The notes beneath the pieces are model-generated. The model searched no databases. It had not been told where the DNA came from and was given only the letters and a program-made list of their open reading frames with translations. Below, piece by piece: positions 4,788-59,145 of a DNA stretch of 64,000 nucleotides (within the stretch, counting starts at the first letter, position 1; each line of letters begins with the position of its first letter). Made by a program: the position numbers and the translations under genes. The stretch covers positions 85,249,969 to 85,313,968 of the forward strand of contig JAQMRL010000003.1 in NCBI GenBank assembly GCA_035578175.1. The letters are read 5' to 3'. This DNA is from Catonia carolina (lineage: Eukaryota; Arthropoda; Insecta; Hemiptera; Achilidae).

Positions 4788-6094
4788 TATACGAGGGCGA
4801 ATCAAATATAAACGGTAATTTTTAAAATTATATTTATTGAATAATATTATACAAAAACTATGCCTTCAACATTTTTCAATATAGTCTCCTGCATTATCTA
4901 CACACTTCTGCCACCGATTTGGAAGCTTGAATATGCCTGTTCATAAAAAGATTGAGGGAGAGTTGTCAACCAATCGCGCACGTGCTTCTCGACATCTTCA
5001 TTGCTTTCAAATCGTTTTCCTCCAAGTGATTCTTTCAGAGGCGCAAACAAAAAGTAGTCACAAGGGGACAAGTCTGGACTGTAAGGAGGGTGTTTGAGAG
5101 TTTCCCAGCCCATTTCTTCCAATTTATCCCTTGTCAACAATGCGGTGTGAGGCCTTGCGTTTTCATGAAGAAGGATGACATCTCTAATGGGCACACCTCG
5201 TCTTTTGTTTCGGTAACTGGTTTTTGCCGACTGTAGCACCTGGCAGTAGTAAGCCACATTCACTGTTCGTTGATCGTGAAGAAAATCAATGAGTAGAACT
5301 CCCCTTGAGTCAAAAAAAATTGTTGCAAGAACTTTTCCGGCTGAGACAAGTTTTGGCTTTCACTGGGCAGCCTTCATCCTTCCTTCACCACTCCTTACTT
5401 GCCATTTTCGATTCGGGAGTGCAATGGTGGACCCACGTCTCATCATATGTGACGATGTGCCTCAAAAAATCTTCACCTTCTTCTTGAAATCGATGCAGAA
5501 GTCTCCCGGCGATCTCCGACCTGACCTGTTTTTGATTTCCGGACAGCAACCTCGGAACCCATCGAGCACTAATCTTTCTGAAGCCAAGGTGGTCTGTGTT
5601 TGCAGACTGAACACTCCCGTAGCTGATACCAATTTCTGACGAGATTTCTTGAACAGTTAACCAGCGATCACCTTCAATAAGCTCTCGAACGGCACTAATG
5701 TTGTCATCTGTGAGACTTGATCTTGGGCGTCGACGGTGACTTTCGTTTTCAACACGTTCTCGCCCACCCCTAAATTCTCTGGCCCACTTATACACTCGAT
5801 TCTTAGACAGAGTAGTGTCCCCAAACTGTGCCCGCAAACAAGTAAAAATTTCCGAAGGCTTAACACGTTCATTTGCTAAAAATTTTATGACGATTCGTTG
5901 CGCAACAGATGGATGTACCTCTCGCTCGGTTATGGCTGTACTGACGGCAGAACGCAACAATGCTGCAAAGTAAGCTGTTCCCCCAACTCCTATTGAACAA
6001 AACAACAACTGCTCACCGCCACATCTGGTCCGAACGTGTTTGGTACAGTCAACAGCAAAATAATTACCGTTTATATTTGATTCGCCCTCGTATA
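4788..6094 (-). mobile_element. Full-length mariner element
   Basis: Terminal inverted repeats of about 30 bp (TACGAGGGCGAATCAAATAT inward from both ends) are near perfect and flanked by TA. The length of ~1.3 kb is standard for mariner. The transposase lies on the minus strand and is broken. The near-identity of the ends suggests a fairly recent insertion relative to the surrounding pogo-like element. Confidence 0.9.
4866..6008 (-). pseudogene. Mariner transposase, frameshifted
   Basis: The enzyme cuts and rejoins the element at its inverted repeats. An N-terminal helix-turn-helix region (RVYKWAREFRGG, then RRPRSS, 5385-6008) leads to WVPRLL and the first catalytic Asp (HIVTYDETWVHH). After a frameshift near 5385 and an in-frame stop, the frame resumes at GKVLATIFFDSRG. 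The second catalytic motif reads ILLHENARPHTA, with Glu where mariners have Asp. The third, YSPDLSPCDYFLF, is intact. Spacing is 34 residues as in DD34D mariners. A second frameshift near 4920 restores the usual C-terminus (RWQKCVDNAGDYIEK) to about 4866. At least three lesions plus the catalytic change make it inactive. Confidence 0.9.
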
Positions 6095-6119
6095 AATAAA
6101 AAAAATATAAAGGTTATAT

Positions 6120-6266: not shown

Positions 6267-6495
6267 TAGGAACATAATTAAACGTAAAGATATATACGTT
6301 TTTGAACATCACATTTAATTAAAAACAAAACCAAATAGCAGCACTAATACATATTATGCACATAAATACTGTAATAACGAAATTTCCATTATTACTTATT
6401 TTTAAAATAGTCATCAATTTTGAGTGCGTAAGGGGGGAATTTTAATGCGTATGTCACCGGATGGCGACATTAAGTGGCAACCTTATTAATTTGGT

Positions 6496-6511
6496 GGCCC
6501 TGAAAAGGGCC
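6496..6511 (-). promoter_or_regulatory. Histone mRNA-type 3' stem-loop (in L-A)
   Basis: Minus strand reads GGCCCTTTTCAGGGCC followed by ACCAA: a 6-bp stem (GGCCCT/AGGGCC), UUUC loop and ACCA flank, matching the metazoan replication-dependent histone stem-loop. No histone coding sequence is present. Confidence 0.6.
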
Positions 6512-6894
6512 GTTTAAGCGGTGGTCGTCTGTCGTAGTCGTCGTGGCGGTCGGAGGCTGGGCGACACGGCGTGTCGTCGTCCAGCGGAGACGTCATCTTC
6601 TTCCCTCGCAGTAGTGCGTCGATGGCTGCTTCGTCGGGTCCGGTGGGCGTAAGGCTCGGTCGAGGGACCGCTGTGGGCATCGCTCGCGTCAGCGGGCGAT
6701 GACGGTCCGGTCGACGGCCTACGGTGACGGGACGGCGAGCGAAAGCAGCATCTTCTCTCTTGCGGGGTCGTCGATTAGTTCTCGCTGGAGTCCGGCAGCC
6801 GTGTGCGGTGGTGGACGTTTCGTCTGCTGTCTGGTGGAAGTGAATCCCTCGGTGTCTTGATTGGAATTGATTCAACCCGGCTCAGTGCAGCACT

Positions 6895-6903
6895 CTTTAT
6901 ATA
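6895..6903 (-). promoter_or_regulatory. TATA box of L-A
   Basis: TATATAAAG on the minus strand, about 186 bp inside the element, followed by AGTGCTGCACTGAGC, which is nearly identical in L-B. Confidence 0.55.
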
Positions 6904-7244
6904 CCTGCTGTTGTAGAGAGCGGCTACTGCTTTGGCCTTGATGACAAAGGCAGCCGGAAGGTTTGTCGGGCGCCGCTACAGGGCTTTGTCGCTTCGCCGC
7001 TAAAGAGCCCATCGCGCCGACAAAGGCCGGAAGAAGTATTGAAGGCCGGCAACACAGTAAATTATTAATTACAAGGGGTGGCGGTGACAATTATTAAGCG
7101 GAAACATATGTACACGTGTTTTGTGAAAAAGTTACACTTATTCACAATCAACCTTAATAAACCTTATTAATCAAGGGACTCACGAAAACCGCGTTTTAAG
7201 CAGAAAATCGTTTTAGCCGTGAGCGTATTAAACGGACACTACTG

Positions 7245-11339: not shown

Positions 11340-12252
11340 TGTCACCGCCACCCCTTCTAATTAATCATTTACTGTGTTGCCGGCCTTCAATACTTCTTCC
11401 GGCTTTTGTCGGCGGGACAAACCCTTTAGCGGCGCACCGACAAACCTTTCGGCTACGCACCGACAGAGGACTTTGTCATTAAGGCCAAACCAGTAGCCGC
11501 CTCTTACCACAGCGCTCTCGGCGACTATATAAAGAGCGCTGCACTGAGCTGAGATATCCACTTCCGATTCAGACAGAAGAAGACGAGCTCAGCCGAGACC
11601 GGACGCACCATCCCTGGTCTACGCTACCGGTGGCGGACGCTACATTCCCGCACCGGTCAGACTTCGCCGGCTCGGAGAAAGCCACCTCGGCCGCGCTATC
11701 GGCAGACGGCCGACCCGACACTGCGGGGCTCTGGGGGGCGCCAATGTCACGCTGCAGTGGAGACCCAACTGCCGCTGAGGGAAGGCTAGGCCTGAACCCG
11801 GTAGCCGAGCCGTCACTCTTCGGGCTCCGCTTCCACCACGCCGGCTCGCCACTTCCGATCCAGACAACGACAAGTTGTCCACCACGACACACGGCTGCCG
11901 GACTCTAGCGAAAACTAATCAACGACCCCGCAAGAGAGAGGAGATGCTTCCGCTTGCCGACCCGTCACCGTAAGCCATCAACCGTACCGTCATCGCCCAC
12001 TGACGCGAGCGATGCCCACAGCGGTCCCTCGACCGAGCCTTACGCTCACCGGATCCGACGAAACAGCCATCGACGCACTACTGCGAGGGAAGAAGATGAT
12101 GTCTCCGCTGGACGACGACACGCCGTGTCACCCAGCTCCTCGACCGCCAGGACGACTACGACCGACGCTTCTCCAAGATGACCACCGCTTAAATGGAACT
12201 TTTTAGGGCCACCAAACAAATAAGGTTTGCCACTTGTCGCCATCCGGTGACA
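11340..12252 (+). mobile_element. Solo-LTR-like repeat L-B, mosaic, with 4-bp target duplication
   Basis: 913 bp, begins TGTCACCGCCACC and ends CATCCGGTGACA, flanked by GTAT on both sides. TATATAAAG lies at 11526, at the same 186-bp offset as in L-A. The outer parts match L-A, but 11571-11850 matches L-C. This extra block is bordered by an 18-nt near-direct repeat (11558-11575 and 11849-11866). The stem-loop at 12195-12210 is degraded. No AATAAA is visible. The open frames inside (for example 11630-11908) are not recognised and probably non-coding. Confidence 0.65.
11526..11534 (+). promoter_or_regulatory. TATA box of L-B
   Basis: TATATAAAG followed by AGCGCTGCACTGAGC, conserved with L-A in sequence and position. 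Confidence 0.55.
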
Positions 12253-21410: not shown

Positions 21411-21426
21411 GGCCCTTTTCAGGGCC
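21411..21426 (+). promoter_or_regulatory. Histone-type 3' stem-loop 1 (in L-C)
   Basis: GGCCCTTTTCAGGGCC, identical to that in L-A, preceded by AACAAC and followed by ATTAA in place of ACCAA. Confidence 0.55.
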
Positions 21427-21442
21427 ATTAACACAATTAAAC

Positions 21443-21458
21443 GGCCCCTTTCAGGGCC
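21443..21458 (+). promoter_or_regulatory. Histone-type 3' stem-loop 2 (in L-C)
   Basis: GGCCCCTTTCAGGGCC followed by ACCAATTTTCC. The loop-closing pair is C-A; the remaining five pairs, the loop and the ACCA flank agree with the histone consensus. Confidence 0.5.
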
Positions 21459-30738: not shown

Positions 30739-32888
30739 TTACTTTCAATTGCCCTATATGAATTATTATGGAAGGAAAGTGTTGCTTTTACGTGGATTTT
30801 TCGAAATCAGTTGTCACTGAATATAGGTTACACGTTTTCAGGCTCCATGCGCCAAAATAACATGGTTTTAGCGATTGGTATGTGTGTAAATAATACATCT
30901 CATGAACAGAATACCGTACGAAGTTGGAAATTGCACTTAAATTAGGCACCACTAGGGAATCCAATACGAACATTTTTACCAAAATCGATCAACCGAAGTA
31001 GTAGTTTATTCGTAAAATTTTCACTTTTTTGCCATTTCTCGAAAATGGCAACTACGATTTTTTTTAAAAAATCGCCTCAATTACTATATTTCTTATGGTC
31101 TACAAGGTAGGAGGATATGCGGCATGTCTGCTGAAATTCTTGTGAGTAGTGCTATCGTGGTAAAGAAATTTTTTTAAGATTAGAACTATACATTTTAGGG
31201 CAAGATATATATAAAATTAGAAAACCGAAAACTTTTATTTCAAATATTGTTTTCTAAAATTTTGTTAGTTTAACGTCAATTTAAAATTTTGAGTAATCTG
31301 GTCATTAGAATGGGTAATTTTTAAAAATTGGGGCCTTAAGTATGCGTTTGATGACAAAAATGTATAATTCAAGTAATAGGAATTAAACAAGCTACATCTT
31401 TTATTTCAAGAATTTTTCTTCCTAGCGTTCTTTAGCGTCAAGTAATGATTTACGTATTTTTATGTCCTAAAGACGTTGATTTTCATTAAGCTTCATTCAC
31501 ACATGATTAAAATTAGGTTATGTTTTTTATATTACATTGTTTACTTATTTTTAAACATAATTTATAAAATATCAAAACACTTTTTTTAGACCTGTATATT
31601 TTTTAAGATTAAAACAATCACCGGGAGTTATCTTGGCGCCCGGAGTCCATCTTGTCATGCCTCACCAATACGCGAGTACACCGAAGAGGCGGTACCAGCG
31701 TAATAAACACATTTTTACGTACTAACTATTCCCAAATACGAAATTTTCGAAATTTACTTAAAATTTATCACCAAAAACATATATAAAAACACTTTTTTTA
31801 GACTTGTATTTTTTTTTAAGATAAAAACAATTACCGGGATTTATCTTGGCAAACGGGAGTCCATCTTGTCTTACCCCACCGATACGCGAGTACACCGAAG
31901 AGGTGGTACCAGCGTAATAAACACATTTTTACGTACTAACTATTCCCAAATACGAAATTTTCGAAATTTACTTAAAATTTATCACCAAAAACATATACGT
32001 ATAAAAATACTTTTTTTAGACTTGTATTTTTTTTTAAGATAAAAACAATTACCGGGATTTATCTTGGCAAACGGGAGTCCATCTTGTCTTGCCCCACCGA
32101 AACGCGAGTACACCGAAGAGGTGGTACCAGCGTAATAAACATATTTTTACGTACTAACTATTCCCAAATACGAAATTTTCAAAATTTACTTAAAATTTAT
32201 CACCAAAAAACATAAAATCAAAACACTTTTTTTAGACCTGTATATTTTTTTAAGATTAAAACAACCATCAGGATTTATCTTGGCAAACGGGAGTCCATCT
32301 TGTTGTCTGCCCCCAAAATGCGCGAGTACAACGAAGGGACGGTACCAGCGTACCAAACATATTTTTACTTACTAACTATCCAAATACGAAATTTTAAAAT
32401 TTATTACCTAGAAATATAATTATATCAAAATACTTTTATTAGACCTGTATATTTTTTAAGATTAAAACAACCACCGGGAGTTATCTTGACGACCGGGAGT
32501 CCATCTTGTTGACATGCCCCACCAATACAAGAGTAAACCGAAGGGGCGGTACCAGCGTACTAGACATATTTTTATTTACTAACTATTCCTAAACACCAAA
32601 TTTTTAAAATTTATTACCTAGAACCATGTATCAAAACACTTTTTATAGACCTTTATTTTTGTAAGATTGAAACAACCACCGTGAGTTATCTTGGTGACCG
32701 GGTGTCCATCTTGTTGTCTTGCCCCACCGAAAGGCGACATACAGTAGAAGGGGTGGTACCAGCGTACGAGACATATATTTACTCACTAACTATTCCCGAA
32801 TACGAAATTTTTAAAATTTATTACCCAAAAAAAATATGTTTTATTATTTACTTTCAAAGAGAAAGTTGTGAGTGTGTTTCACAACAGA
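30739..32888 (+). mobile_element. HINE-like element with internal satellite array
   Basis: Starts TTACTTTCAATTGCCCTATA (5' subterminal repeat and palindrome region) and is colinear with the family to ~31530 (ACATGATTAAAATTAGGTTA). It then holds ~1.26 kb of ~210-bp tandem repeats and resumes at 32855 with AGAGAAAGTTGTGAGTGTG and the terminal CAGA at 32888. The array therefore sits between the body and the 3' hairpin. The usual microsatellite is reduced to a short GT run near 30880. Confidence 0.65.
31574..32840 (+). repeat. Tandem array, six ~206-218-bp units
   Basis: Units start with AAAACACTTTTTTTAGAC or close variants at about 31574, 31786, 32004, 32220, 32427 and 32633, with a partial end near 32816-32840. 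Each carries a GC-richer core (CGAGTACACCGAAGAGG, GGTACCAGCGTA) and a GGAGTCCATCTTG block. Units 1-3 are almost identical; units 4-6 are more diverged. Confidence 0.9.
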
Positions 32889-46497: not shown

Positions 46498-46511
46498 GCG
46501 GGGGGGGGGGA

Positions 46512-46996
46512 AATCTTAAATATTTGGGGGTCCTAAAAGGGCCATTTAAGTGTGTGCGTGTAGGTGGGAAGAGTCGGTTGTTGGGCGCCTGTGGCGGTGG
46601 TAGTCGTAGTATTGGTTGAAGAGGTGGATGACAAGGCGTTTCGTCGTCCAGCGGACGTCATCTTTTTCCCTCACAGAAGTGCGTCGATGGCAGCTCAGTT
46701 GAGGGACTGCTGTAGGTGTCGGGTCAAAGAGTGAAAGCATCAGCTTCTCTCTTGAGGGCGTGGTCGATGGATCTTCGTTGGAGTACGGCTGGTGTGTGCT
46801 ATTGGTTGGTGTCTGGTCGGAGCTACAGAGCGGAGTAGAATGATGGTCTAGCCGAATGTACTCGCTTATATAATGTTCAGAGAGCAGGAGTGGGAGCAGT
46901 TACTCGCTCTCTAGATTTTGTCTTTTGGCACTGTCGGAATCATTATCAACCGACAGCAGAGAAGACCCTACCTAATCAAAGGGGGTGACGGTGTCA
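46512..46996 (-). mobile_element. Solo-LTR-like repeat L-D, truncated
   Basis: The minus strand begins TGACACCGTCACCCCC and shares with L-A ACTCCAACGAAGATCCATCG, AAGAGAGAAGCTGATGC, AAAAAGATGACGTC and CGCTGGACGACGA. A TATATAAG box is at ~46866-46873. The stem-loop region (46529-46543) is degraded and the 3' terminus is missing. Confidence 0.5.
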
Positions 46997-58724: not shown

Positions 58725-59145
58725 TATAATCTGTTCAATTTAGAACAATAATCAACCCCATGACCCAATGAGATGATGGTGATTATATGTATGACGTGTA
58801 AATGAGGTGTAGTCTTGTATAGGCTTTGGCCGACCATTCCTTTGAGAATATGGTTAATTGAATCCCAACCATCAAAGTACACCGGTAACCACTGTCTGAC
58901 ATTCAAATCCGTATAAAAGTAACTACCTTTTGTACGGATTTGAATGTTAGACAGTGGTTACCGGTGTACTTTGATGGTTGGGATTCAACTAACCATACTC
59001 TCAAAGGAATGGTCGGCCAAAGCCTATACAAGACTACACCTCATTTACACGTCATACATATCATCATCATCTCATTGGGTCATGGGGTTGCTTATTGTTC
59101 TGAATTGAACAGATTGTAAAACACACACATTAGGGATTAAAAAAA
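58725..59145. mobile_element. SINE-2 inverted pair (hairpin)
   Basis: A minus-strand SINE-2 body (58725-~58927) abuts a plus-strand one (~58932-59145), forming a near-perfect hairpin with ~190-bp arms. Both arms share variants absent from other copies (CTTTGAGA; GGCCAAAGCCTATACAAG), so they derive from one molecule rather than two insertions. tRNA-like heads are missing. Confidence 0.85.

Follow-up and report, generated by a model that had tools for sequence, protein, structure and literature searches.

In the genome of the hemipteran Catonia carolina (Achilidae), a group of Ty3/gypsy long terminal repeats (LTRs) has very probably replaced the poly(A) signal that defines the border of R and U5 with a histone 3' signal, consisting of a stem-loop, an ACCA flank and a downstream element. 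The copy from which this was recognised is a solo LTR of a family named L-A, located at 6452-7089 of a 64,000-nucleotide stretch (GenBank assembly GCA_035578175.1, contig JAQMRL010000003.1, positions 85,249,969 to 85,313,968, forward strand), hereafter the window; loci fetched from the rest of the genome carry L numbers. The sequences suggest that several LTR families borrowed the histone machinery for their RNA ends, and cleavage of the SLBP/U7 type is the best reading of how these ends would be formed.

The solo LTR at 6452-7089

The L-A copy extends on the minus strand from 7089 to 6452 (638 bp), with the ends TGTCACCGCC...TCCGGTGACA that an earlier sequence-only reading had delimited, and is 97% identical over its full length to the LTR of the miniature element L014. 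A TATA box (TATATAAAG, 6903-6895, minus) lies 186 bp into the LTR in sense direction, as had been noted; in the remaining LTRs of L-A type with defined ends it is found at position 165-209. R is predicted to start about 30 nt downstream of the box. The stem-loop GGCCCTTTTCAGGGCC (6511-6496, minus), with a 6-bp stem and a 4-nt loop, is followed by ACCAA (6495-6491) and ends 44 bp short of the LTR end. By analogy with histone genes, cleavage would occur at the ACCAA flank, which would then mark the R/U5 border and leave 6490-6452 as U5. This putative U5 contains the motif AAGGTT (6484-6479, minus), 11 nt past the hairpin (AGGTT at 12 nt), a candidate histone downstream element that is common to the host histone genes and had been missed by the earlier reading. 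Neither AATAAA nor ATTAAA is present on either strand of 6452-7089, which extends the statement that AATAAA is lacking. What had been observed at 6452-7089 is therefore confirmed, and its interpretation as a histone-type 3' end of L-A LTRs is supported.

Rfam returned RF00032 (Histone3) as the best family match of the window hairpin (31.3 bits, E 4.8e-7). The alignment includes ACCAA and sequence further downstream, and the score is within the range of host histone genes. The curated RF00032 cut-off (34) is higher, and a scan of the whole window at gathering thresholds was therefore empty. Matches to the hairpin with at most 2 mismatches number three in the window vs a mean of 0.02 in shuffled sequence. 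The flanks of 6452-7089 (TAAT/TACG) show no target duplication, and the copy is therefore an old or recombined solo LTR. A protein search with a 131-aa open frame of L-A gave no match at E 0.01.

Hairpins of the host histone genes

In the 1.47-Gb host genome, GGCCCTTTTCAGGGCC occurs in 5,784 exact copies (2887 and 2897 on the two strands), histone genes included, and the same pattern read backwards in none. Among the matches listed, 25 of about 100 hairpin places are found at C1:21.01-21.28 Mb. Loci from this region (L012, L013, L019, L020) contain open reading frames (ORFs) for H1, H2A, H3 and H4, each followed by the same 16-mer hairpin. A fifth kind of hairpin in the cluster has no ORF assigned and is taken by us to belong to H2B; the ACCAA flank is also present at this hairpin and at those of host H2A and H4. 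Among named relatives of the H1 protein, the best are from the leafhopper Macrosteles quadrilineatus and the spittlebug Clastoptera arizonana, which points to a probable auchenorrhynchan host.

In an Rfam run over 11 loci, host histone hairpins scored 29.3-40.7 bits, and the hairpins nearest to the LTR end (in L003, L005, L006, L009, L010, L014, L015, L018, L019 and L028) 31.1-37.5 bits. L018 exceeded the cut-off of 34 (37.5; its inner hairpin scored 24.8) and the two L010 LTRs equalled it (34.0); the other scanned LTR loci remained below it, as did host H1 (29.3) and two of three host H3 copies (32.6). By Rfam score, terminal LTR hairpins cannot be told apart from host histone hairpins. The exact hairpin with ACCAA was absent from a viral contig collection, and the single match in the collected genome contigs lies within a bacterial coding frame and was rejected as chance.

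The downstream element

In the host histone cluster (L012, L013, L020), AGGTT follows 15 of 16 hairpins, at a distance of 15 (four cases), 17 (seven) or 18 nt (four), and is likely to be the host histone downstream element. Genome-wide, AGGTT lies 8-22 nt past 3838 of the 5784 exact hairpins (histone genes included), vs 6 for the reversed motif TTGGA. We also counted 34 LTR hairpins from the first fetched loci and the window, with both LTRs of a pair included and histone genes excluded. AGGTT starts 8-22 nt downstream in 23 of them, and 15-nt control stretches at the same hairpins contain it 0-1 times downstream and 0-2 times upstream. The usual spacing is 12 nt in L-A, 16 nt in a second family (L-B) and 19 nt in a third (L-C). 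A downstream sequence complementary to U7 had been proposed as a check; the AGGTT element, common to LTRs and host histone genes, is a candidate for it.

Full-length and miniature elements

Paired hairpin LTRs around gag and pol, for which the sequence-only reading had proposed a search, were found in three elements (target duplications were read by eye in the printed flanks). L010 (family L-C) has two 1128-bp LTRs that are 100% identical, the duplication ACCT, a lysine tRNA-type primer binding site (PBS; TGGCGCCCAACGTGGGGC) and a polypurine tract (PPT); its gag (361-aa frame) and pol (1111-aa frame) show Pfam gag, protease, reverse transcriptase (RT), RNase H and integrase domains, and each LTR carries an exact hairpin plus a further, inner hairpin in which a pair is broken. 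L127 (L-B) has 662-bp LTRs (100% identical, duplication GTTT), a gag with a Ty3 capsid domain, a 1111-aa pol and three hairpins per LTR, one of them with a U-A for C-G exchange. L128/L129, with ends of the window type, has 765-bp LTRs (100% identical, duplication ACAC), a pol split over two frames and, per LTR, six hairpins of alternating stem type with four AGGTT motifs. L014 and L015 are miniature elements with L-A LTRs (pairs 99.8% and 100% identical; duplications CAAA and TAGT; 95% identity between the LTRs of the two elements), and a PBS and a PPT are present in L014 along with its 4-bp duplication. The paired LTRs are near-identical and the elements have therefore moved recently, hence with working RNA ends from whatever signal their LTRs hold.

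Membership in Ty3/gypsy is indicated by paired TG..CA LTRs with a short target duplication (L010, L014, L015, L127, L128/129), by the PBS TGGCGCCC(G)AACGTGGGGC after the 5' LTR and a G-rich PPT (GGGGGGG/GGGGGGAG) before the 3' LTR, and by the integrase following RT-RNase H in the Pfam order of L010 and L127. The nearest named pol relative is a K02A2.6-like protein of Agrilus planipennis (47%); the assignment is made at superfamily level, without a reference tree. That 6452-7089 is a short non-LTR repeat or a histone-derived retropseudogene could be suspected from this copy alone, which lacks a target duplication and a partner. This explanation is scarcely credible, and was already refuted by paired copies of the same sequence around PBS and PPT (one window-type element also has gag-pol) and by the 4-bp duplications of five paired elements, of the solo copy L075 (GTAC, within a segmental duplication) and of LA2, a further solo copy in the window.

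Arrays of hairpins are seen in the LTRs of L128/L129, L073, L060 and L019, where GGTCC..GGACC stems alternate with GGCCC..GGGCC stems, with AAGGTTT between them, a spacing of 36 and 87 nt and up to six hairpins per LTR. Some elements have a tandem tRNA-Lys PBS, 73-104 nt apart (C1:6524199 and 6524272; C1:28364137-28364465).

Conservation of the hairpin

BLAST comparison of the LTRs of L010 and L014 (1128 x 637 bp) gave a sole match of 29 bp, which is the hairpin with its flanks. Similarly, the matches of the L127 LTR to those of L010 and L014 are limited to hairpin segments of 19-35 bp, and L127 and L010 pol are 42.9% identical. The stem covariation that had been suggested as a check was analysed in 13 distinct hairpins, anchored on a neighbouring AAGGTTT (20 distinct, 7 off-register dropped); the anchor demanded a loop-like core, so that the set is partly selected for hairpins. 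In this set 93.6% of cells pair. Stem pair 3 is U-A in seven, C-G in five and U-G in one, and stem pair 4 is C-G in seven, U-G in three, U-A in one and other in two. Covariation is 0.280 vs 0.187 in shuffled stems, with 4 of 500 shuffles as high. Compensatory variants thus exist, but the statistics are modest, with two of five measures unremarkable.

These data bear on two explanations other than an RNA 3'-end signal. A histone 3' end might have entered an ancestral LTR on a single occasion and since been propagated as a neutral passenger; descent could explain why all families share it, and it has decayed in the window copies LA2 and F. We regard this as very unlikely, given hairpin segments kept between families with 43% pol identity and no other BLAST match between their LTRs, intact hairpins in young elements with identical LTRs, and compensatory stems. 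Slightly less probable still is a palindrome acting at the DNA level, as a protein-binding or integrase-related site with an accidental likeness to histone genes. Such a site would agree with the GC-richness of the inverted repeat and its constant position within the LTR. The loop, the U-A closing pair, the AAAC and ACCAA flanks and AGGTT, however, agree with the host histone genes on just one of the two strands, and U-G pairs occur in the stems.

In L127 (L127:595-2067) and L128 (L128:361-1476), one open frame begins within the LTR and passes the hairpins and the PBS, reaching gag in L127, but an N-terminal extension of gag through this frame is doubtful. Mismatches by codon position are 0.143/0.098/0.126 in 14 copies of L-B type and 0.077/0.094/0.071 in 24 copies of L-A type, which is not coding-like, and most indels are not multiples of 3; the idea that the LTR frame is coding was therefore set aside. 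Within this open frame the three L127 hairpins are read in two different frames, so that their conservation is not that of a common peptide.

Poly(A) signals in LTRs selected by primer binding site

A tRNA-Lys PBS pattern matched 731 places, of which 40 were taken in listed order on C1 and not chosen by hairpin; the L010, L014 and L015 sites and other members of tandem clusters were excluded. An exact hairpin is present within 260 nt upstream of the PBS in 10 of the 40, namely all eight sites with L-A type ends, one with L-B and one with L-C type ends (assigned from the printed LTR ends; L127 and L128 are among the ten). In the 420 nt before the PBS, AATAAA or ATTAAA was found in none of these ten vs 23 of the 30 others (Fisher p 2.3e-5); in five of the 23 the sole signal is an ATTAAA lying across the LTR end. 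Both motifs are also absent from ten of the 12 hairpin LTRs with defined ends (those of L004 and L006 could not be set), as they are from the LTRs of the gag-pol elements L010, L127 and L128. The survey gives minor support to histone-type 3'-end formation.

Five non-hairpin sites (L081, L089, L103, L104, L105) belong to a family with GGTGGCGACA ends and a tRNA-Lys PBS, which has neither the hairpin nor AATAAA/ATTAAA in the 420 nt and is rich in GCTCC..GGAGGC repeats.

Related LTRs and other features of the window

BLAST of the window on itself revealed three more related LTRs. LA2 (11340-12252, plus) is a solo LTR with L-A ends and the target duplication GTAT; a 289-bp L-B-like block (11570-11858) lies in its R part between the L-A ends, a mosaic that suggests recombination between LTR families. 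Its stem-loop GGAACTTTTTAGGGCC (12195-12210, plus) is decayed and followed by ACCAA and AAGGTTT. LB (20901 to about 21500, plus) represents the second family as a solo LTR with the ends TGTCGCCGAC...GTCGGCGAC; its right boundary is uncertain, and a target duplication was not seen. It is 81% identical over 608 bp to the LTR region of L018, and L127 is the full element of this family. LB has two tandem hairpins 32 nt apart, GGCCCTTTTCAGGGCC (21411-21426, plus; 25.9 bits) and GGCCCCTTTCAGGGCC with ACCAA (21443-21458, plus; 31.2 bits, E 5.2e-7), and one ATTAAA. The third, F (about 46500-46900, minus), is an old L-A relative with a TATA box and a decayed stem-loop (46529-46543).

Apart from LTRs, the window contains remains of a mariner-type transposase in two frames (4898-6113, minus; Pfam Transposase_1, 3.7e-11), at least six tandem copies of a unit of about 210 bp (31568-32830) and a near-perfect inverted repeat (58775-59071) with 145-nt arms, 96% complementary and separated by 7 nt.

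Proposed 3'-end formation

In LTR elements and retroviruses, R is defined by the poly(A) site. At histone genes, SLBP binds the stem-loop, the U7 small nuclear ribonucleoprotein (snRNP) pairs with the downstream element and CPSF73 cuts a few nt past the stem. From DNA sequence we infer, for the LTRs, the start site, the cleavage, the missing poly(A) tail and the use of SLBP and U7. RNA polymerase II (Pol II) would start about 30 nt after the TATA box, and SLBP, U7 snRNP and CPSF73 would cut about 5 nt past the stem-loop of the 3' LTR, so that the genomic RNA would end in the stem-loop without poly(A). R would then span the stretch between start site and ACCAA, about 380 nt in L-A, leaving roughly the last 40 nt (in L-C about 100 nt) as U5. 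tRNA-Lys would prime minus-strand strong-stop DNA, which would jump by R homology as usual; a histone-type 3' end is compatible with the retroelement cycle because all that reverse transcription requires is a copy of R at each end. The same signal would also be present in the 5' R, where premature cleavage may be tolerated or suppressed, or part of the RNA lost to early cuts; retroviral 5' poly(A) sites are silenced. Hairpin arrays may increase efficiency or bind several SLBP.

Several points weigh against this proposal. AGGTT is missing at 8-22 nt from 11 of the 34 LTR hairpins (six inner array members and five terminal ones), and the LTR spacing of 10-19 nt is wider than that of histone genes (15-18). 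No U7 snRNA able to pair with AGGTT was found in the host genome by RF00066 and pattern searches: RF00066 gave no match in the host, nor in 14 control genomes, and is hence uninformative, the pattern AAACCT..AATTTGTCTNG gave 25 places (16 viewed) and AACCT..AATTTNTCTNGG 53 places (seven fetched), with no candidate that has a convincing 3' hairpin. Two of the five covariation measures are not above shuffles, and the hairpin is decayed in two of four window copies (LA2 and F), as it may be in old solo LTRs. The PBS contrast shrinks without signals up to 12 nt from the PBS (18 of 30, Fisher p 8e-4), for AATAAA alone (16 of 30, p 0.003) and in the last 260 nt only (12 of 30, p 0.02), and the small number of independent families and GC differences mean that the p values overstate the case. 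Hairpin LTRs are GC-rich, with only 0.09-0.47 AATAAA/ATTAAA expected per LTR, and seven of the 30 non-hairpin LTRs also lack both motifs, five of them of the GGTGGCGACA-end family. Finally, one AATAAA or ATTAAA is present in two of the 12 delimited hairpin LTRs, as well as in LB.

These occasional signals would also agree with another role of the hairpin: it may bind SLBP for export, translation, S-phase stability or packaging, while cleavage and polyadenylation at weak, non-canonical signals form the 3' ends. Besides processing, SLBP has functions in export and translation, and arrays of up to six hairpins exceed what one cut needs. Against this, the hairpin is paired with AGGTT near histone spacing, which is a requirement of processing, the last hairpin lies 40-125 nt from the LTR end, where R is expected to end, and the ten PBS-selected hairpin LTRs are free of AATAAA/ATTAAA. 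We consider such a role unlikely, yet the most probable of the alternatives.

SLBP/U7-type cleavage has a wider implication, which seems likely to us as a whole, namely that an entire lineage of autonomous, recently active Ty3/gypsy elements has swapped polyadenylation for histone-type 3'-end formation. Their genomic RNA would lack poly(A), be bound by SLBP and be produced chiefly during S phase and in the germline or the embryo. Solo LTRs would have scattered thousands of processing sites through the 1.47-Gb genome, able to cut host transcripts and to compete with histone mRNAs for SLBP and U7.

Comparison with known systems

Among the matches listed in a literature search, no paper was by title or abstract on histone-type retrotransposon 3' ends. 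This search of PubMed Central (PMC) agrees with the statement of the sequence-only reading that it knew of no described family like this; Repbase and most subscription journals were outside the search, and a prior description is possible. PMC9709290 gives histone mRNAs as the unique known targets of SLBP. If the proposal is true, histone mRNAs would be joined by retroelement RNAs as a second class of RNA served by SLBP and U7. Expression of the elements would be coupled to the cell cycle, their RNA would be hidden from poly(A) libraries, and thousands of natural histone-type signals would be at hand for testing which stem, flank, downstream element and spacing are required.

The proposal may also be relevant to the loss of some LTR RNAs during poly(A) selection. 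Passages of PMC6884822 report that planarian LTR-element RNAs, like histone mRNAs, rise in rRNA-depleted libraries, and state, with reference to another paper, that poly(A) tails are absent from LTR elements; unlike here, a hairpin or histone-type processing is absent from these passages.

The elements described here share with Ty3/gypsy (Metaviridae) the LTRs, a tRNA-Lys PBS, a PPT, gag, the order protease-RT-RNase H-integrase and the 4-bp duplication. Ty3/gypsy elements have a canonical poly(A) signal according to Benachenhou et al. 2013 (PMC3601003), whereas L010, L127 and L128 have the histone signal and no AATAAA/ATTAAA. With replication-dependent histone genes (RF00032) they have in common the hairpin, ACCAA and the downstream AGGTT, in the same strand and order as in the host's own genes; in contrast to these, the signal is in the LTR, thus at both ends of the retroelement RNA, and sometimes in tandem arrays.

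They do not belong to the TRIMp3 group (Cassandra, Helenus, Ajax): L-A and L-C LTRs have a TATA box, and gag-pol members exist. No tRNA or 5S sequence was detected in the window L-A copy or LB (Rfam, E up to 10, a search that did list the histone hairpin), nor any tRNA in the window (ARAGORN), and the word "histone" does not occur in the text of PMC10886601. As described in that paper (Kojima 2024), Cassandra, Helenus and Ajax are nevertheless similar in having an LTR with a captured regulatory part of a host RNA gene and miniature forms. These terminal-repeat retrotransposons in miniature are non-autonomous and carry RNA polymerase III promoters derived from 5S rRNA or tRNA, whereas in the C. 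carolina elements the part that appears to have been captured is a Pol II 3'-end signal, and it is found in gag-pol elements too.
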